This document shows, piece by piece, positions 26,398-36,044 of a DNA stretch of 64,000 nucleotides. This DNA comes from Bacteroidota bacterium. GTDB lineage: Bacteria > Bacteroidota > Bacteroidia > Flavobacteriales_D > Sanyastnellaceae. The notes under the pieces were generated by a model. The model had not been told where the DNA came from and ran no database searches. It saw nothing but the letters and a program-made list of their open reading frames with translations. Location: assembly GCA_027622975.1 (NCBI GenBank), contig JAQBVN010000007.1, positions 1-64,000 of the forward strand. The letters are read 5' to 3'. The translations under genes and the position numbers were made by a program. Numbering within the stretch: position 1 is the first letter of the stretch; each line of letters begins with the position of its first letter.

Positions 26398-28716
26398 ATG
26401 GCCAAAAATCTCGTCATAGTGGAGTCTCCCGCCAAAGCGAAAACCATCGAAGGCTACCTCGGGAAAGACTTCAAGGTGAAATCTTCCATGGGCCACATTC
26501 GAGACTTGGCCAAGGGAGATGACAGTGTCGACATTGACAACGATTTTACCCCGAAATATGAGGTGAGCCCCTCGTCGAGAAAAGTGGTCTCCGAGCTGAA
26601 AGGCTTGGCCAAAGACGCTGAGACTGTGTGGCTCGCGACGGATGAGGACCGCGAAGGGGAGGCCATCAGTTGGCACTTGATGGAGGCCTTGGGTTTGGCC
26701 CCAGAAAAGACCAAACGCATTGTCTTCTCAGAAATTACGAAACCTGCCATCCTCAAGGCCATCGAGCATCCACGTCAAGTGGACATTGACCTCGTCAACG
26801 CCCAACAAGCGCGGCGCATCCTGGATCGGTTGGTGGGATTTGAATTGAGTCCCGTGCTGTGGAGAAAGGTTCGCCCATCGTTGAGTGCAGGACGTGTTCA
26901 AAGTGTAGGGGTGCGCATCATTGTCGATCGCGAAAGGGAAATCGATGCTCACCAAGCCACGAGTTCCTTCAAAGTCGCCGGACATTTCTGGACAGGCGAT
27001 GCCAGCGTGAAAGCCAATTGCGCCACCTCCTTTTCCTCGGAATCCGAGGCCCGGGCATTTTTGGAAGATTGTCAACAGGCACATCATGTGGTGACGTCCC
27101 TCGAAACGAAGCCGGCCACCAAGAAGCCCACAGCTCCATTCACGACGTCGACCTTGCAACAGGAGGCTTCTCGAAAATTGGGTTTCAGCGTGTCTCGAAC
27201 GATGGGCGTGGCCCAAAAACTCTACGAAGCTGGTCGCATCACATACATGCGAACAGACTCGACCCATCTCAGTGATTTGGCCTTGGACGCAGCCGCCGCA
27301 GAAATCAGCAGGACCTTTGGCCAGGAATACGCACATCGTCGCACGTACACGTCATCAGCCAAGGGCGCACAAGAAGCCCACGAAGCCATTCGTCCAACTG
27401 ACATGGCGGCTTCTACCCTGCAAGGGACCCGCGAAGAGCAACGCCTGTATGACCTCATCTACAAGCGGACGCTGGCCTCACAGATGGCAGATGCCAACAT
27501 TGACAAGACGGTGGCCAAAATTTCCGTCTCAGGAAGGAGTGAAGAATTTGTTGCGCGTGGCGAGGTCATCACTTTTGAGGGCTTCCTCAAGCTCTATCTC
27601 GAGGGAACGGACGACGAGGACGGTGTGGATGAAACCACCAAGGACATGCTCCCTGCCATGCGTGAAGGCCAGGACATGGAGCGCCGAGAAATCACCGCAA
27701 CCCAGCGTTTCACGAAACATCCCGCGAGGTACACGGAGGCCAGTTTGGTCAAGCAACTCGAAGAACTCGGTATCGGACGCCCTTCGACTTATGCCTCCAC
27801 CATTGAGGTGATGCAGAAACGCGGATACGTGGTCAAAGAAGACCGCGAGGGCACCCCCCGTGATTATCGCATGCTAACCCTCAGCGGCCAAGGCATTGCT
27901 GAGGACACCAAAACGGAACAAGCGGGTCAAGAACGCGGAAAATTGTTCCCCACGGACATCGGTCTGGTGGTCAATGATTTTCTCCTTGAACATTTCCCTC
28001 AAATCCTCGACTATCACTTCACGGCTGGCGTTGAGGAGGAGTTTGACGTGATTGCGCGAGGCCAGATGGACTGGCGGGCCATGCTCAAGCAATTCTATAC
28101 TCCCTTCAAGGATCGGGTCGCCGACACCCTGGAGCATGCTGAACGCGCTTCGGGAGAACGAATTTTGGGCGTTCAGCCCGAAACAGGAGCCCAAGTACTC
28201 TGTCGCATTGGGCGCTACGGCCCCATGGCCCAAATTGGTGGGCCTGACGACGAGGAAAAGCAATTTGCCTCTCTGTTGCCCGGGCAGTCCATTGAAACGC
28301 TCACCTTGGATGAAGCCTTGGACCTGTTCAAGCTCCCGCGCACCTTGGGAGAGCACGACGGCAAAAAGGTCACAGCAGCCATCGGTCGCTTTGGACCCTA
28401 TGTCAGGTACGATGGAAAGTTTGTGTCTCTCAAGGCCGACGACGGAGATGACCCCTACACGGTCACGCTCGAACGTGCCATGGAACTGGTCCAAGCCAAA
28501 CTGGCAGCAGACGCCAAGGCCCTGATCAAGGCATTTGACGAAGACGAAGGGGTTCGCATTCTCGACGGGAGGTATGGGCCATACATCAAAGCCGGGCGCG
28601 TCAACGCCACAATTCCCAAGGGAGAGGATCCTGCCGGAATCACCTGGGAACGCGCCCAAGAATTGATCGAGGAAGCCAAAAACAATCCACGCCGAGGACG
28701 CAAGCGTTCCTCTTAA
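26398..28716 (+). CDS. topA: DNA topoisomerase I (type IA)
   Basis: A 772-residue enzyme that relaxes negative supercoils. It begins with the TOPRIM strand NLVIVESPAKAKTI; the acidic DEDREGEAISWHL motif follows near residue 80; GRVQSVGVRIIVDRE near 165; and the active-site tyrosine lies in ITYMRTDST (about 283). The C-terminus carries topoisomerase C-terminal repeats (about 610-750, GRYGPMAQIG, GRFGPYVRYDG, GRYGPYIKAG) without zinc-finger cysteines, ending in a basic RRGRKRSS tail. The ATG at 26398 fits the family start. It precedes the arginase-like gene and the T9SS operon on the same strand. Confidence 0.97.
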   Translation: MAKNLVIVESPAKAKTIEGYLGKDFKVKSSMGHIRDLAKGDDSVDIDNDFTPKYEVSPSSRKVVSELKGLAKDAETVWLATDEDREGEAISWHLMEALGLAPEKTKRIVFSEITKPAILKAIEHPRQVDIDLVNAQQARRILDRLVGFELSPVLWRKVRPSLSAGRVQSVGVRIIVDREREIDAHQATSSFKVAGHFWTGDASVKANCATSFSSESEARAFLEDCQQAHHVVTSLETKPATKKPTAPFTTSTLQQEASRKLGFSVSRTMGVAQKLYEAGRITYMRTDSTHLSDLALDAAAAEISRTFGQEYAHRRTYTSSAKGAQEAHEAIRPTDMAASTLQGTREEQRLYDLIYKRTLASQMADANIDKTVAKISVSGRSEEFVARGEVITFEGFLKLYLEGTDDEDGVDETTKDMLPAMREGQDMERREITATQRFTKHPARYTEASLVKQLEELGIGRPSTYASTIEVMQKRGYVVKEDREGTPRDYRMLTLSGQGIAEDTKTEQAGQERGKLFPTDIGLVVNDFLLEHFPQILDYHFTAGVEEEFDVIARGQMDWRAMLKQFYTPFKDRVADTLEHAERASGERILGVQPETGAQVLCRIGRYGPMAQIGGPDDEEKQFASLLPGQSIETLTLDEALDLFKLPRTLGEHDGKKVTAAIGRFGPYVRYDGKFVSLKADDGDDPYTVTLERAMELVQAKLAADAKALIKAFDEDEGVRILDGRYGPYIKAGRVNATIPKGEDPAGITWERAQELIEEAKNNPRRGRKRSS

Positions 28717-28830
28717 CCTTTCAGGGTCCTGGCTGCGGAAACTGCCTTGCATTCACATTTCGTTGTGAATCGTTGAAGGAACTGACGCGCTCAATTGGCG
28801 CCTGTTGCCTCGACCTTGCGGTCGTGCCAC

Positions 28831-30027
28831 ATGGCCACCCAAAGCCTGATTCCTATGTCCGACGGATTCCTCGACATGTTTGAACCGGCGCACCCGCCGG
28901 ACTTTTCCAACGCCGAAGGCGTGGCGCGAATCGCCGACCGCATCGAAACCCATCGTTTTGACCATCAACCCATGCTTGAAGGAGCGCGGGTCGCCATCTT
29001 TGGTGTCAATGATGGACGGCGTTCCGGCGACAACGAAGGGTGCGCCGCTGCGCCAGACGCCATTCGGCACTGGCTTTATCAACTCGTCCCCCCCAGCGCT
29101 TGGCAACCTACCCTCGATCTCGGCGACCTGCGAGCCGGAGCCGAAGAATCGGACACCCATGCAGCTGTTCAATCCGTTGTGGAGGAATTGGTGCAAATGG
29201 GCATCATCCCCATTGTCTTGGGTGGTGGTCATGATTTGACTGTACCCATGTACAAGGCCTTGGAAACAGTGGGGCGCCCCATCAACGTCGTGACTGTCGA
29301 TCCTCGCTTGGACTTTGGTGGAGACCCTTCATCGGTTCATTCGCGAAACCACATGAACGAGGTGGTGATGCATGAGCCCAACTATCTGTTTGACTACACC
29401 AATGTTGGGCATCAGGGCTACCTGACCGACCCAGACACGTTGGAGCTTCTCGATCGTTTGCAGTTTGAGGCCATCCGTTTGGGCACGTTGTTGCAGGACA
29501 TGAGGCAAGTCGAGCCCGTGGTAAGAAATGCCGACTTGGTCAGTATCGACGTGGCTTCCATCCGAGCATCGGACCATCCAGCCTCATGCCATGCGGGACC
29601 CAACGGCATGACAGCAGAGCATCTCTGCCAACTTGCGCGCTACATCGGAATGAGCGATCGCCTGCTCGCCATGGGGTTTTTTGAGCACAATCCCGACCTC
29701 GACGACAGAGGGCGTGGAGCCCATTTGATCGCCCAGGGCACGTGGCATGTCTTGGATGGAATCTTCAACCAAAAGGGAGATCACCCCAAGTGCAGCACAG
29801 AAGATTATCTCCGATATGTTGTCGCACTTCCCGGCGAAAATCACGAGATAGCCTTTCTCAAAAGTCCCAAAAGCGACCGCTGGTGGATGGACGTTCCTGT
29901 CCCGACGAAAGAAAAAAACAACCTTTTGCCCTCATTGCTCGTACCATGCACCTATGAAGAGTACGTCGAAGCTTCCGAGGGCAACCTTCCTGACCGTTGG
30001 TGGAGAACCTACCAGAAACTCGCATGA
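28831..30027 (+). CDS. Degenerate arginase/formimidoylglutamase family protein linked to the T9SS locus
   Basis: A 398-residue ureohydrolase-fold protein. The first metal motif is present as GGGHDLT (about 130). The second, DAHxD in active enzymes, reads DPRLD (about 158), and the third, SxDxDxxDP, reads SIDVASIRA (about 240). Two of the six usual manganese ligands are therefore replaced (His to Arg, Asp to Ala). A conserved stretch PNGMTAEHLCQLARYIGMSD follows. Related Bacteroidota proteins near gldK are often annotated as formimidoylglutamase (from memory), but the ligand losses argue for a pseudoenzyme or altered site. There is no hut gene nearby. The start may instead be the ATG at 28855. 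It lies 136 bases before the porP-like gene. Confidence 0.75.
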   Translation: MATQSLIPMSDGFLDMFEPAHPPDFSNAEGVARIADRIETHRFDHQPMLEGARVAIFGVNDGRRSGDNEGCAAAPDAIRHWLYQLVPPSAWQPTLDLGDLRAGAEESDTHAAVQSVVEELVQMGIIPIVLGGGHDLTVPMYKALETVGRPINVVTVDPRLDFGGDPSSVHSRNHMNEVVMHEPNYLFDYTNVGHQGYLTDPDTLELLDRLQFEAIRLGTLLQDMRQVEPVVRNADLVSIDVASIRASDHPASCHAGPNGMTAEHLCQLARYIGMSDRLLAMGFFEHNPDLDDRGRGAHLIAQGTWHVLDGIFNQKGDHPKCSTEDYLRYVVALPGENHEIAFLKSPKSDRWWMDVPVPTKEKNNLLPSLLVPCTYEEYVEASEGNLPDRWWRTYQKLA

Positions 30028-30080
30028 CCATGGTCACGTCCATTCCCCCAACTCTGAGATGAGAAGTTTGCGGAAAGCCC

Positions 30081-30108
30081 TTGCACATTGGGAAAATCCC
30101 TATATTAG
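30081..30108 (+). promoter_or_regulatory. Promoter of the porP-gldKLMN operon
   Basis: TTG at 30081-30083 and TATATTAG at 30101-30108 (7 of 8 to TAnnTTTG) are separated by 17 bases, the spacing expected for Bacteroidota promoters. The leader to the ATG at 30164 would be about 50 bases. Confidence 0.45.
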
Positions 30109-30163
30109 CCAACCTCTGCGTACCTGCGTAGAGAATCAACCTGCTGAAAACCAACGTGATAAG

Positions 30164-31126
30164 ATGATTCGCAACGTCTTTTTAGGCCTTTGTTTCGCCT
30201 CGCTGACCATAGGTCCATTGTCTGCACAACAGGACCCGCAATTCACCCAATGGTTCAATGACCTTGCCGCCTTCAACATTGGAGCTGCTGGGCAAGATGA
30301 TTTGGTGCATGTGAATGCTTGGTACCGCAACCAATGGATGGGGCTCAACAAGGCACCTGTCACCACCATGATCAACGTGCATTCTGCCGTCGATTTCATT
30401 CCTGGGGCTCTCGGTTTTCAATTGTACCAAGATGAGATCGGCCAGGAATCCAACACCATGGTGAAACTCGGATATGCATACCAGCTCGCTCCCCTCTCCA
30501 ATGGAGCCAAATTGGGCGTGGGATTGTCTGCATCCTTGTTCAGCAAAAGCTTTGATGCCCTTTGGATTGCTGTAGATGGTGTGGCGAACGACCCCGCCAT
30601 TCCCGACGCTTCTGGTTCCGGGACGTCGACAGACATCGACTTGGGTGTCTTTTTAAACAAGCCCAACGAATACTATGCTGGCCTCTCGGTCACGCACGTT
30701 GCTGAGGTTCAAATGGCATCACTCAACATTGTTCCCACCCGACATTTCTATTTGATGGGTGGGTACAACTACCCATTGTCAGGTGACGAATTGATTCTTC
30801 GGTCCAATGTGCTTGCAAAAAGTGATCTCAACGCCACAGCACTCGACCTGAACGTCAATGTGCTATGGAGTGACATGGTGTGGGGAGGTTTGACCTTCCG
30901 GCCTGGCGACGCTGTGGCCCCTGTTGCTGGTTTCCAATACCGCACCTCGAAAAAAGAAGGAATTACCTCGAGTACCCAAGTCTTCAAAGTGGGGTACTCC
31001 TATGATGCGACCTTGAGTGAATTGAGTTCCTACAGCACCGGTTCACACGAACTCTTTTTGTCCTACTGTTTCAAGTTCATCACAACGCCCATCGAAAACA
31101 AGTACGCAAACCCGCGATTCTTGTAA
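30164..31126 (+). CDS. PorP/SprF family type IX secretion outer-membrane protein
   Basis: A 320-residue protein with a signal peptide (1-21, ending LSAQ) followed by QDPQFTQWFNDLAAFNIGAAG, the characteristic N-terminus of PorP/SprF proteins, and a beta-barrel that ends in a strand with SYCFKF plus a short tail. These proteins anchor T9SS components or cargo at the outer membrane. It is the first gene of the gldKLMN operon, as in many Bacteroidota where the PorP homologue precedes porK/gldK. Whether it behaves as PorP (core) or as a dedicated SprF partner cannot be told from sequence alone. Confidence 0.88.
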   Translation: MIRNVFLGLCFASLTIGPLSAQQDPQFTQWFNDLAAFNIGAAGQDDLVHVNAWYRNQWMGLNKAPVTTMINVHSAVDFIPGALGFQLYQDEIGQESNTMVKLGYAYQLAPLSNGAKLGVGLSASLFSKSFDALWIAVDGVANDPAIPDASGSGTSTDIDLGVFLNKPNEYYAGLSVTHVAEVQMASLNIVPTRHFYLMGGYNYPLSGDELILRSNVLAKSDLNATALDLNVNVLWSDMVWGGLTFRPGDAVAPVAGFQYRTSKKEGITSSTQVFKVGYSYDATLSELSSYSTGSHELFLSYCFKFITTPIENKYANPRFL

Positions 31127-31187
31127 GACACACGAAACCATGTCTTCGAGGCGTTGTATCCATATCAATCTGCTAGAAAACCATTCC

Positions 31188-32558
31188 ATGAAACAATTCC
31201 TGATGATCCTGTTCGCCCCGCTGTTGATGGTGGGGTGCATCATGGGGCCCCAGGGAGAATTGGTGGGTGTTCAAAACCGCCAATACTGGGAGCAGTCCAA
31301 CCCGTTTGGGATGAACTACATCCACTTTGGGTCCTACACCATGGGCCCAAGTGATCAAGATGTACCGTTTGCCTTGAACACAAGGTCGAAAACTGTGACC
31401 ATCCCTCCATTCTACATGGACGTGCACGAAATCACGAACAACGAATACAGGCAATTTGTCTTCTACGTGCGTGACTCGTTGTTTCTCCAAACCCTCGCAG
31501 ACAACGACGACGATCGATACTACATCGCGGAAAATGACCGCGGACAGGAACTCGATCGTTTCATCGACAAAGGATTTGTGTTGAATTGGGAAGAACCCAT
31601 CGACTGGCAGGATGAAGACATTTTCGATCTCCTGTACGACGAATTCTACTTGCAAGGCTCAGATCAGTTCTACAACCGCAGAGAAGTGGATACGCGAAAA
31701 CTGAACTTCACGTATTTCTGGGTCAATCTGGATGCTGCTGCAAGCAACAACACGAGCGACATGGTGGAATATGGCGTTGAGAATGAGATCAGCCAGCTCC
31801 ACAGCACCCGACGCCACAGCGATCGCGCCCAATTTGTGATTCGTGAGACCATCAACGTGTACCCTGACACCTTGGTTTGGATTCATGATCATACGTATGC
31901 ATACAACGAGCCGCTGGCCGAGATGTATTTCTACCACAATGCATACGACGACTATCCCGTAGTGGGTGTGACTTGGGGTCAAGCGAAAGCATTCAATGCT
32001 TGGAGAACCCAAATCATGAACGAGTGGAAGCAGAAGAACGGCGAACCCTACGTTCAGAAATTCCGCCTGCCTTCAGAAGCTGAATGGGAATACGCTGCCA
32101 GAGGTGGCCGTGATTTGGCCCCATTCCCTTGGGGTGGCCCCTATGCTCGGAACCAACAAGGCTGTGTCCTGGCAAATTTCAAACCCATGCGTGGTGACTA
32201 CGTGGAAGATGCCAATGCCTACACCGCTCCTGTTGAATCGTACAGTCCCAATGACTACGGGCTCTACAACATGAGTGGAAACGTCGCCGAGTGGACCAAC
32301 ACAGCCTTTGACGAAACGGTCTATGACTTTTCCTGGGACTTGGCACCTGACTATGTCTACCATGCCAAAGTGGATGACCCGCCTGCCTTGAAGCGGAAAG
32401 TCATTCGCGGTGGATCGTGGAAGGACATTGGTTATTACTGCCAAACAGGCACACGCACCTATGAATACAGTGACACCGCCAAGGCGTACATAGGTTTCCG
32501 TTCTGTCATGTCATACCTCGGCCGCGGCAAGTCCGGGTTGCCCGAAGAATGGAATTGA
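31188..32558 (+). CDS. gldK: T9SS outer-membrane ring lipoprotein GldK/PorK
   Basis: A 456-residue lipoprotein: signal peptide with lipobox LMVGC (cysteine about 16), then a formylglycine-generating-enzyme-like (sulfatase-modifying factor) fold with the motifs FYMDVHEITNNEYRQFV (about 80), PVVGVTWGQAKAFNAWR, FRLPSEAEWEYAARGG (about 300), YNMSGNVAEW (about 360) and VIRGGSWKD (about 405). GldK forms a ring with GldN under the outer membrane. The ATG at 31188 was chosen because it gives a proper lipoprotein signal. It lies 61 bases after the porP-like gene. Confidence 0.95.
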   Translation: MKQFLMILFAPLLMVGCIMGPQGELVGVQNRQYWEQSNPFGMNYIHFGSYTMGPSDQDVPFALNTRSKTVTIPPFYMDVHEITNNEYRQFVFYVRDSLFLQTLADNDDDRYYIAENDRGQELDRFIDKGFVLNWEEPIDWQDEDIFDLLYDEFYLQGSDQFYNRREVDTRKLNFTYFWVNLDAAASNNTSDMVEYGVENEISQLHSTRRHSDRAQFVIRETINVYPDTLVWIHDHTYAYNEPLAEMYFYHNAYDDYPVVGVTWGQAKAFNAWRTQIMNEWKQKNGEPYVQKFRLPSEAEWEYAARGGRDLAPFPWGGPYARNQQGCVLANFKPMRGDYVEDANAYTAPVESYSPNDYGLYNMSGNVAEWTNTAFDETVYDFSWDLAPDYVYHAKVDDPPALKRKVIRGGSWKDIGYYCQTGTRTYEYSDTAKAYIGFRSVMSYLGRGKSGLPEEWN

Positions 32559-32656: not shown

Positions 32657-33412
32657 ATGAAACCAGGAAGCAAGCAGTGGAAAAACTTTATGGCCAAACT
32701 CTACGGATGGGGTGCCGCCATTGTGATTGTCGGCGCATTGTTCAAAATCCAACACTGGGAAGGTGCAGGCTTGATGCTCATCCTTGGTTTGGGAACTGAA
32801 GCCTTCATTTTCTTCATGTCTGCGTTCGAGAAGCCTCATGAGGAACCGGATTGGTCTTTGGTGTATCCTCAATTGGCCACGGGTGAAGGGGCGGAAAAGT
32901 CTCCTACCCAGCAACTCGATGACATGCTGGCGAAGTCCAACATCGACAGCAGCTTGATTGAGAAACTCGGAAATGGCATGCGTCACTTGGGCGAACAGGC
33001 CTCCAAAATGGGAGAGGTTGCAGACGCTTCAGTGGCAACCAAAGAATACAGCGATGCGTTGGTCAAGGCCTCCAACAGAGTGGATACATTGAGTTCCACG
33101 TATGAAGAGGTGAGCCAAAGCCTGACGGGTCTGGTGCAAGCAAGCAGTGAGGGCACCCAAGCTGGAGCCGGTTTGGCCAGAATGAATGAGAATCTGAGCT
33201 CATTGAACACCATGTACGAAAGCCAGTTGCAGCAGCTGGAGCAAAACAAAGCGCTCTTTGCGGGCATGGGTGAACTCGTTCAAAATCTCAACGACTCCAT
33301 TGAAGACACCAAAGTCTACAAGGAGAACATCTCAGAGCTGGCGAAGAACCTTGCCTCTCTCAACACCGTGTATGGAAACATGTTGAATGCCATGGGTGGC
33401 GGTCGCAGCTGA
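32657..33412 (+). CDS. gldL: T9SS inner-membrane motor protein GldL/PorL
   Basis: A 251-residue inner-membrane protein with two N-terminal membrane helices (LYGWGAAIVIVGALFKI and MLILGLGTEAFIFFMSAF, about 15-60) that include the conserved KIQHWEG loop and a glutamate within the second helix, then a cytoplasmic coiled-coil domain (about 90-250). GldL forms the pentameric stator-like core with the GldM dimer and uses proton motive force to drive T9SS and gliding. It is 10 bases upstream of gldM. The first ATG of the longer frame is 24 bases upstream; the shorter start fits the family. Confidence 0.95.
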   Translation: MKPGSKQWKNFMAKLYGWGAAIVIVGALFKIQHWEGAGLMLILGLGTEAFIFFMSAFEKPHEEPDWSLVYPQLATGEGAEKSPTQQLDDMLAKSNIDSSLIEKLGNGMRHLGEQASKMGEVADASVATKEYSDALVKASNRVDTLSSTYEEVSQSLTGLVQASSEGTQAGAGLARMNENLSSLNTMYESQLQQLEQNKALFAGMGELVQNLNDSIEDTKVYKENISELAKNLASLNTVYGNMLNAMGGGRS

Positions 33413-33422
33413 TTGAGAAACC

Positions 33423-35174
33423 ATGGCTGGAGGAAAAGAAACACCGCGTCAGAAGATGATCGGGATGATGTACCTCGTCCTGACCGCACTTTTGGCCTTG
33501 AACATCTCCAAAGAAGTCTTGAACGGCTTCGTCAAAGTGGAGCGCGGTCTCATTCAAACACAGGAGACCCTGAAAGAAAAATCACTTCAATCCTTCTCTG
33601 AGATTGAATCGCGAATGATTGTCAACCAAACCAAGGTTGCACCCTTTCACGAGCAAGCCGTCCAAGTGAAAGAAGCCAGCGAGACATTGCGAGCCCACAT
33701 GCAGGAGCTCAAAGCACGCACCATGGCGTATTCACAGGGGGCCTACGATGCAGCAGAATCCAATGGGATGAAACCCTACTTGGATTTGGATGACGAAGGG
33801 TATCCCATGTGTGTGGCACTGGATGCCAAGGACGAAGAAGGTGAAGACCTGATCAAGCAAAAGGATGAGTACACAAACGTGACTCGGTTCTTGTATGGCG
33901 AAAACATTGCCGAACCCAAGGACGGAGAGTGGTCAGCTCGCGACTTGCGAAACAAATTAGAAGCTTACCGCGACATGCTGAAAAGCATCTCATTCTCCGA
34001 CGCCAACGGGAATCGCATTGAACTCCCCAATGGATTGCAATTGTCCATTGACGAGCGTTTTCAGTTTCCCAATGAAATTGAGTCGGACAAGGAGGTCACC
34101 TGGGAATTTGCCAACTTCCACGACAATCCCTTGGCTGCTGTCATGCCGATCATGTCCAAGCTCATCATCGATGTGCAGGATGCCGAGCATGACGTGTTGT
34201 CCTTCCTCCTGAGCGGCATTGACGGCAAATCGTTCAAGGTGAACAAATTCGTCCCCTTGGTGGTGCCGGAGTCCAACTACGTGCTTCGTGGGGACAGCAT
34301 TCGGGCGAAGGTCATGCTGGCCGCTTTTGACAACACCAACATCCCTGACATGTACTTGAGCGAAGAACCATGGGACGGTGATTCTACGGCCATCTTTGAC
34401 TTCAATGGCACGCCCACCCTACCCGTGGATCGCGGAACGGGATTCGGGACATTCCAAGCGTCTACACGGAGTTTATCCCTTGGTGAACACCAATTCAAGG
34501 GTTTGGTGCGATTCCGAGATACCGACGGATCCTACAAGGACTATCAGGTGCTGACTGACCCCATCACGGTCGCTGAGCCCGCTTTGGTGGTGTCGCCATC
34601 GAAAATGAATGTCTTTTACCGAGGGTTGCCCAATCCCGTAGAAATTTCAGTTCCAGGGGTACCACAGGACAAAATTGAGGTGCGAATCGATGGGGGACAC
34701 AAGCTTGTCCGTCAATCGGATGGAACTTACGTCGTTGAGGCCAACGCCAATACCCAGGTGAAAGAAGCCAACATCACTGTGACTGCAGAATTGCCCGATG
34801 GATCCAAAAAGTCTCTTCCGGCAAAGAATTTCCGGGTCAAACGAATTCCTGACCCAGTGGTGAACTGGCTTGGCAACAATTCCGTGAAAGGCACCATCAA
34901 AATGTCAGAAGTTCAGGCTTTCGCTCCCTTGAACGCTGCGATGGAAAATTTCGATTTCGAATTCCGAGCACGGGTCAAAAAATTCACTTTGCTCATTGTT
35001 CGAAGTGGCCAAGTGTCTGAGCTCACCTCCAACTCCAACCAGTTCACATCGGACATGAAGGATGCCCTTGGACGTCTGAGAGCGGGAGACAACATCTATT
35101 TCACCAACATTTTGGTGACGATGCCCGACGGCGACAGACCCGTGGCACCTCTTACCTTGAAAATCATCAACTAA
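33423..35174 (+). CDS. gldM: T9SS motor protein GldM/PorM
   Basis: A 583-residue protein with a short cytoplasmic N-terminus (GGKETPRQKMIGMM), a single membrane helix (YLVLTALLALNISKEVL, about 17-33) and a long periplasmic part of four domains that reaches the GldK/GldN ring. GldM pairs with GldL to turn proton flow into motion. It is somewhat longer than the roughly 515 residues I recall for flavobacterial GldM. It is 6 bases upstream of gldN. Confidence 0.95.
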   Translation: MAGGKETPRQKMIGMMYLVLTALLALNISKEVLNGFVKVERGLIQTQETLKEKSLQSFSEIESRMIVNQTKVAPFHEQAVQVKEASETLRAHMQELKARTMAYSQGAYDAAESNGMKPYLDLDDEGYPMCVALDAKDEEGEDLIKQKDEYTNVTRFLYGENIAEPKDGEWSARDLRNKLEAYRDMLKSISFSDANGNRIELPNGLQLSIDERFQFPNEIESDKEVTWEFANFHDNPLAAVMPIMSKLIIDVQDAEHDVLSFLLSGIDGKSFKVNKFVPLVVPESNYVLRGDSIRAKVMLAAFDNTNIPDMYLSEEPWDGDSTAIFDFNGTPTLPVDRGTGFGTFQASTRSLSLGEHQFKGLVRFRDTDGSYKDYQVLTDPITVAEPALVVSPSKMNVFYRGLPNPVEISVPGVPQDKIEVRIDGGHKLVRQSDGTYVVEANANTQVKEANITVTAELPDGSKKSLPAKNFRVKRIPDPVVNWLGNNSVKGTIKMSEVQAFAPLNAAMENFDFEFRARVKKFTLLIVRSGQVSELTSNSNQFTSDMKDALGRLRAGDNIYFTNILVTMPDGDRPVAPLTLKIIN

Positions 35175-35180
35175 CGTCTC

Positions 35181-36044
35181 ATGCGCCAGACAATCTTGTA
35201 CACCTGTGCTTGGCTCGCTCTGCTTTTGGCAGGTGCCTTTGTGCCAACCCACGCACAATCTGTCTTGGATGGAGCCTACGTGAAGGAAACCAACCTGACC
35301 AAACGCGTCATCCCTTACCCCTACCTGAGGGAAGCAGACGTGATGTACAAACGTCGTATTTGGCAAGACATTGATCTTCGTCAGAAGTTCAATCACCCAT
35401 TTTACTTCCCCTTGACCCCCATTCAGGATCGCAAGAACTTGTTCGACGTGATCATGAACGCCATTGAGGTTGAGGGCTCCATCGTTCCCTACTACGCAGG
35501 ACCTCTCGGCGAACAAGATGAGTTCCAGGAAAAAATGCTTCCAGGTTCTCCCAAATGGAAAAATGCCGTGGGGACCATGAACTATGTGGCCCAAACGGAT
35601 GAATACGGAGAGCGCACGGGTGATTTTGATTCAACGTGGGTGAGGGTGACGGCTCAAGAGGTTACGCGTTACCGCATCAAGGAAGAATGGATTTGGGACA
35701 AGCAACGCAGCGAACGCTACGTGCGAATCATCGGCATTGCCCCATTGAAAGAGAAATACAAGGATGGTGTGAGCATTGGATATCAGCCACTGTTTTGGCT
35801 TTACTATCCCGAGTGTCGCTACGTCTTTGCCAACAGCGAAGTGTACAACATGTTCAATGACGCCCAGAGACGGACCTACGAGGACCTGTTCCAAAAGCGC
35901 TATTTCTCGAGCTACATCGTCAAGCAGGACAATTCATTTGACCGATTGATTGTGGATTATGCCTTGGGTACCGATGCCTTGGCCGAATCTGAGAGAATTC
36001 AACGAGAATTGTTCAATCTCGAACACGACATGTGGCATTACTAA
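35181..36044 (+). CDS. gldN: T9SS ring protein GldN/PorN
   Basis: A 287-residue periplasmic protein with a signal peptide (1-25, ending THAQ). Typical GldN stretches are RVIPYPYLREADVMYKRRIW (about 45), FYFPLTPIQDRKNLFDVI and EEWIWDKQRSERYVRIIGIAP (about 170), and ECRYVFANSEVYN. GldN binds GldK to form the ring at the outer membrane. It is the last gene of the operon; an intrinsic terminator follows 50 bases later. Confidence 0.95.
   Translation: MRQTILYTCAWLALLLAGAFVPTHAQSVLDGAYVKETNLTKRVIPYPYLREADVMYKRRIWQDIDLRQKFNHPFYFPLTPIQDRKNLFDVIMNAIEVEGSIVPYYAGPLGEQDEFQEKMLPGSPKWKNAVGTMNYVAQTDEYGERTGDFDSTWVRVTAQEVTRYRIKEEWIWDKQRSERYVRIIGIAPLKEKYKDGVSIGYQPLFWLYYPECRYVFANSEVYNMFNDAQRRTYEDLFQKRYFSSYIVKQDNSFDRLIVDYALGTDALAESERIQRELFNLEHDMWHY

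Follow-up and report, generated by a model that had tools for sequence, protein, structure and literature searches.

The window analyzed here is a 64,000-nucleotide stretch of DNA from a Bacteroidota bacterium. It carries the gene for an arginase-family protein, referred to as ALP, between topA and the T9SS genes porP and gldKLMN (Table 1). The product scored 83 bits on the Pfam model PF00491 (Arginase; cut-off 22) over residues 53-306, and family models confirmed the gldKLMN neighbors, in agreement with the initial annotation of an arginase-family protein beside the T9SS operon. topA, unmentioned in that annotation, lies directly upstream on the same strand, and a miaB-like ORF (named by reading the sequence) is also among the neighbors. 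The gene had been taken to start at 28831, an upstream in-frame ATG from which 398 aa are counted, but this start was not borne out: close relatives have in common an ATG at 28855, so the coding sequence probably spans 28855 to 30027 on the forward strand (390 aa, stop at 30027). Residue numbers throughout are counted from 28831.

Table 1. Features of the ALP locus, with positions in the window
Feature	Position	Strand	Basis
topA, DNA topoisomerase I, immediate upstream neighbor	26398..28716	+	family models
Inverted repeat ATTCACA-N6-TGTGAAT between topA and ALP	28751..28770	+	conserved in window clade
Ureohydrolase (alpha/beta/alpha) domain, about residues 53-316	28987..29778	+	Pfam, AlphaFold, structural match
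H134, corresponding to arginase H101; mostly Q among relatives	29230..29232	+	family alignment
DPRLD: D157 and D161 retained, R159 in place of metal-B His	29299..29313	+	family alignment
Clade-specific EPxxR motif, E228-R232	29512..29526	+	family alignment
D240 retained, A242 in place of metal-B Asp	29548..29556	+	family alignment
C-terminal domain, residues 317-398, RWWMDVP and LVPC.Y motifs	29779..30024	+	model and family alignment
Promoter-like conserved block with leader, upstream of porP	30090..30163	+	window-clade relatives
porP/sprF family gene	30164..31126	+	family models
gldK/porK	31188..32558	+	family model
gldL/porL	32657..33412	+	family models
gldM/porM	33423..35174	+	family models
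gldN/porN	35181..36044	+	family models

The order of porP and gldKLMN after ALP was as first described, but the cluster does not follow directly, since a 136-nt gap with a promoter-like block lies between. This block, ATTGGGAAAATCCCTATATTAGC, and its leader are strongly conserved before porP in window-clade relatives. It seems to be a candidate promoter of porP-gldKLMN, so that gldKLMN need not be transcribed through ALP; a scan for sigma-70 promoters across 28500-31300 gave no hit. On the other side of ALP, the inverted repeat is perfect and is the sole match in the window, where the chance mean is 0.36 with 2 mismatches. It recurs exactly at the same spot in the loci of six relatives (L033, L034, L035, L038, L039, and L040) and suggests a putative operator or terminator.

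An AlphaFold2 model of ALP, with 29 family sequences as input (mean pLDDT 84, pTM 0.87), has the alpha/beta/alpha fold of the ureohydrolase superfamily, and profile match and fold agree on this membership. Residues 29-315 have the fold in common with HutG at 18-20% identity: Z was 36.9 for T. cruzi formiminoglutamase (4mxr/4myn; rmsd 1.9 over 278 residues) and 33.8 for B. subtilis formimidoylglutamase (3m1r), and Foldseek concurred on formiminoglutamase as the best structural match. Residues past about 317 fall outside this match and form a C-terminal domain of about 80 residues (RWW...C..Y), modeled as four strands and two helices, which is absent from canonical ureohydrolase paralogues. Its assignment to a known domain was rejected. 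Pfam gave nothing for the window's domain and only single chance-level matches for other members, PDB sequences gave no match under E 0.08, and Foldseek on the domain model reached a best E of 0.36. At a mean model pLDDT of only 77, the lack of convincing Pfam or PDB relatives does not show that the predicted fold is new.

The six metal ligand positions, which we take to correspond to arginase H101, D124, H126, D128, D232, and D234, are occupied in the window by H134, D157, R159, D161, D240, and A242, versus H, D, H, D, D, and D. The motifs DPRLD and SIDVASIRA were found as described, at residues 157-161 and 238-246, and the alignment bore out the replacement of two of six Mn ligands (R159 and A242), so the window sequence lacks the six-ligand binuclear center of a catalytic ureohydrolase. 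Both replaced residues presumably serve metal B alone, which would leave all four metal-A ligands in place. A segment of ALP resembles SFDLDSIRxSDAPG, common to intact Bacteroidota paralogues. Unlike HutG, ALP has lost the metal-B ligands, has an extra C-terminal domain, belongs to a separate clade, and falls below the family cut-off: it scored 73.4 bits on TIGR01227 (NCBIfam), versus a cut-off of 229.15, which does not support the label formimidoylglutamase.

The absence of histidine-utilization genes held for the neighborhood, which consists of topA, porP, gldKLMN, and the miaB-like ORF, but a urocanase is encoded on another contig. This long-form enzyme (L234:7680-9713, minus strand; 678 aa) has no other obvious histidine-use genes beside it. 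FtcD had no match in the genome. hutU, present in 211 of 247 class genomes, is not discriminating. The genome's only other PF00491 match, also on another contig (L235:3644-4543, minus strand), is an intact agmatinase-like ureohydrolase. That gene adjoins arginine-decarboxylase-like and deoxyhypusine-synthase-like genes, both named by reading.

ALP relatives were collected from GenBank contigs (80 loci) and from genome-sample loci. They form a Bacteroidia-wide clade separate from canonical Bacteroidota ureohydrolases. In a quick tree of 94 rows picked by hand, several of them long-branched, the branch dividing 26 canonical rows from all 68 family rows had support of 100; the phylogenetic check against true ureohydrolases that had been asked for thus placed ALP in a clade of its own. 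Ligand loss confined to the window lineage was rejected, as the site is missing across the whole clade. Among 165 family rows, none kept six ligands, 31 kept four, 108 three, 10 two, 14 one, and 2 none, leaving 26 with two or fewer; these rows, among them the window itself, were counted without removal of near-copies such as L043 and L214 and several window-clade rows. In 28 canonical Bacteroidota paralogues, the first of the six positions was H in 24 and N in 4, the second D, the third H, the fourth D except for one N, the fifth D except for two C, and the sixth D. L001 (where an arginine-decarboxylase-like ORF had been taken for the arginase), L229 (ambiguous), and L231 (a fragment) were left out of both counts. 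With no family row intact and nearly all ligands present in the canonical paralogues, the suggestion of a pseudoenzyme was supported family-wide.

Asp was retained at the D124, D128, and D232 positions in 150, 139, and 151 of the 165 rows (84-92%). Of the two metal-B positions, that of His is hypervariable and that of Asp usually holds S, N, A, or G. The GGGHD motif is indeed kept in the window (residues 131-135) but is no family trait, H standing at the H101 position in 30 rows and Q in 110. Since the quick tree places the window clade (HDRDDA) among Q-bearing relatives, the window's H may be a reversion. Two or fewer ligands were also found in 7 of 20 members with GldM 3-4.5 kb downstream, the 20 being those retrieved of the 43 near-GldM genomes in the order sample described below. 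The role that holds the gene in place there therefore needs no metal.

Other residues have become fixed in the clade. Twenty columns are at least 95% identical within the family. R216, G218, E228, P229, and R232 (R-x-G and EPxxR) and, in the C-terminal domain, F342, W351, W352, C373, Y378, and A381 are conserved in ALP and occur in 0-3 of the 28 canonical paralogues. W305 is also conserved but is common to 6 of the 28; Q195 is invariant in the family and found in 17 of the 28, and several other conserved columns are generic. Family f5 (L158 and L160-L162) has lost almost the whole set of ligand residues and the greater part of the RWW motif; topA is still upstream there, in some at a distance. 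Pairwise omega within the window clade was 0.01-0.07, about 0.05, where dS could be computed, several pairs being dS-saturated. In a simple hydropathy scan, a signal-peptide-like N-terminal stretch was absent from 163 of the 165 family rows, and porP, gldK, and gldN did show one. ALP is therefore best read as a conserved pseudoenzyme and not as a formimidoylglutamase. It is probably cytosolic and strongly constrained for some purpose besides the old catalysis.

Gene order ties ALP to topA as well as to the T9SS genes. Among GenBank loci, which are the query's nearest relatives, topA was just upstream in 69 of the 71 with enough upstream DNA, and gldK lay within 8 kb in 49 of the 59 with enough downstream DNA. 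Where both flanks were available (n = 54), 45 loci had topA and gldK and 9 had topA only. The 54 genome-sample loci were looser: 17 had both, 3 topA only, 4 gldK only, and 30 neither. The four with gldK and no topA come from two families (L131 and L164-L166). In the divergent family of L164, L165, and L166, a shortened ALP homologue is convergent to a murF-like gene and gldK, with porP in two of the three and a long PorU-like ORF beyond, and is still near T9SS genes; the murF and PorU names come from sequence reading and not from a family search.

Gaps between topA and ALP are often 0-60 nt, which suggests a shared transcript in many genomes. In a survey of topA loci, topA was found in 28 of 30 genomes, and ALP was the first ORF after it in all 10 ALP-bearing genomes. 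No hidden, diverged ALP was detected after topA in the ALP-less genomes of this survey (best E 0.31). In one GldM-bearing genome, G588 (L253), reading of the sequence showed a PorP-like and a GldK-like ORF directly after topA and no intervening ALP, a natural loss.

To compare ALP with the T9SS across genomes, ALP was scored as present at E < 1e-30, and counts were taken by hand from tabulated matches. In an even sample of 247 genomes of the class, GldM was found in 237 and absent from 10; a strong ALP match was present in 224 of the 237 and in 5 of the 10 (Fisher p = 2e-4). In a sample of 119 genomes of the order, ALP was present in 82 of 107 GldM-bearing and 1 of 12 GldM-less genomes (p = 5e-6), so that 82 of 83 strong-match genomes had a GldM match. 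Both Fisher tests ignore kinship among genomes. In 43 of these 82 genomes, GldM was on the same strand, 3.2-4.5 kb downstream; in the remaining 39 it was far off on the same contig (1) or on another contig (38). The 43 are mostly one per family, which argues that the arrangement is old.

SprA was sought in the 20 GldM-less genomes of both samples. It was present in 5 of the 6 that have a strong ALP match, and GldM was therefore probably lost in assembly in those five. The sixth, G347, has ALP with neither GldM nor SprA; its assembly is in 130 contigs, and the other sampled members of its genus have GldM. Among the 11 genomes with neither GldM nor SprA, ALP was thus found in G347 alone; the other ten include a 0.5-Mb genome and one 74% complete. 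A TopA tree, weakly supported at many nodes, places the T9SS-less genomes G230, G238, and G416 in one clade with T9SS-bearing genomes that are also without ALP, and puts G517, G612, and G619 outside it. Co-loss of ALP and the T9SS is thus only partly independent. Conversely, 13 of 237 GldM-bearing genomes in the class sample and 25 of 107 in the order sample had no ALP or only a weak match. ALP is therefore not present wherever the T9SS is and is no universal part of it, and the T9SS can do without ALP. An association with T9SS genes across genomes, which the initial annotation had proposed checking, was nevertheless found: both the spacing in 43 of 82 genomes and the count of 1 in 11 contradict its absence.

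We consider it about evenly balanced whether ALP is a catalytically dead cytosolic scaffold or regulator that lost its metal site early and has been retained mainly in T9SS-bearing cells. The genome data favor the proposed tie to secretion or gliding, as an association only. That part of the proposal is weakened by a topA adjacency at least as frequent as that of gldK (69/71 versus 49/59), by the 30 of 54 genome-sample loci with neither gene, by T9SS genomes in which ALP is missing, by the promoter that porP-gldKLMN seem to have of their own, and by the only partly independent co-loss. The same observations lend themselves to a second reading, possible though distinctly less probable, in which the same pseudoenzyme has a function tied to topA or to general cell physiology and gldKLMN is a neighbor through an ancestral order topA-ALP-porP-gldKLMN. 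The short topA-ALP gaps, the place of ALP as first ORF after topA in 10/10 genomes, the conserved block before porP, the topA-porP-gldK order that G588 retains without ALP, and the nine GenBank loci in which ALP has topA beside it and gldK is missing all fit this reading. A gene as nearly universal as topA, however, fails to explain the near-absence of ALP where GldM and SprA are missing, and four loci have gldK without topA.

The remaining readings concern chemistry. The three Asp residues retained across most of the family are more than a fully dead pocket would obviously need, and ALP could be a mononuclear metal-A enzyme (D, D, D and H or Q) with changed chemistry or substrate, with a single-metal site in the majority of members, which retain three or four of the ligands. 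The window sequence retains all four metal-A ligands, four of the 28 intact paralogues have N at the first His position, and PDB titles list both a two-Mn form of T. cruzi formiminoglutamase and an N114H variant, an indication that active enzymes do not strictly need the first His. We hold this reading to be unlikely: no more than two ligands remain in 26 of the 165 members, including seven from intact gld loci, and the hypervariable former metal-B His position offers no single new residue. A true formimidoylglutamase or other standard ureohydrolase is highly improbable. The best structural match is formiminoglutamase, and the genome has a urocanase and no FtcD match, but both metal-B ligands are gone, TIGR01227 falls far below its cut-off, and the clade is separate from intact paralogues. 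A decaying pseudogene, for which the lost catalytic residues would speak, was rejected as next to inconceivable in view of the omega of about 0.05, the presence of a strong match in 229 of the 247 genomes of the class, and the invariant new motifs.

Pseudoenzymes of the ureohydrolase superfamily are already known. An arginase-like protein from T. brucei (Hai et al. 2015) reportedly has the ureohydrolase fold without a binuclear Mn cluster. To our knowledge it has no C-terminal domain of the ALP kind, and unlike ALP it is eukaryotic, with no T9SS context; the title of the 4rhm mutant, S149D/R151H/S153D/S226D, implies Arg in place of His, as in ALP. A report on metformin hydrolase (PMC11271267) describes the subunit MetCb as a metal-free ureohydrolase homologue that acts by binding a partner, with five of six ligands lost and an active paralogue encoded next door as the partner. 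ALP, in contrast, has no adjacent paralogue. With MetCb as precedent, ALP would most likely be a partner-binding ureohydrolase scaffold. No paper on the ALP gene was found in the open-licence PMC literature, and a term search found arginase unmentioned in two T9SS papers (PMC10994853 and PMC8986121). Neither the ALP clade nor its added domain nor its position next to topA and the T9SS appears to be described in that literature.

For the scaffold or regulator, we propose as ancestor a cytosolic ureohydrolase whose binuclear metal site disappeared early in Bacteroidia and which gained the C-terminal domain. The result would be a conserved, non-catalytic protein, kept mainly in cells with a T9SS, that binds a partner through its EPxxR surface and RWW domain. 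The partner would belong to the T9SS, although TopA or a metabolic partner is possible. The cytosolic domain of GldL, a motor protein, is a guess as candidate, as the sequence does not single out GldL. It is attractive in that PorX, a cytosolic T9SS regulator, is reported to bind the GldL cytoplasmic domain (PMC10951265). PorX is a response regulator with a PglZ domain, has no sequence relation to ALP, and serves as an analogy only.

In Bacteroidota, secretion and gliding are driven by the T9SS, and nearly all of its parts described so far are located in the envelope. Motor assembly or control would become more accessible to study through a conserved cytosolic protein whose gene adjoins gldKLMN. 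The ALP gene, easily annotated as an enzyme, would also illustrate clearly how an enzyme family became structural or regulatory across a whole bacterial class.
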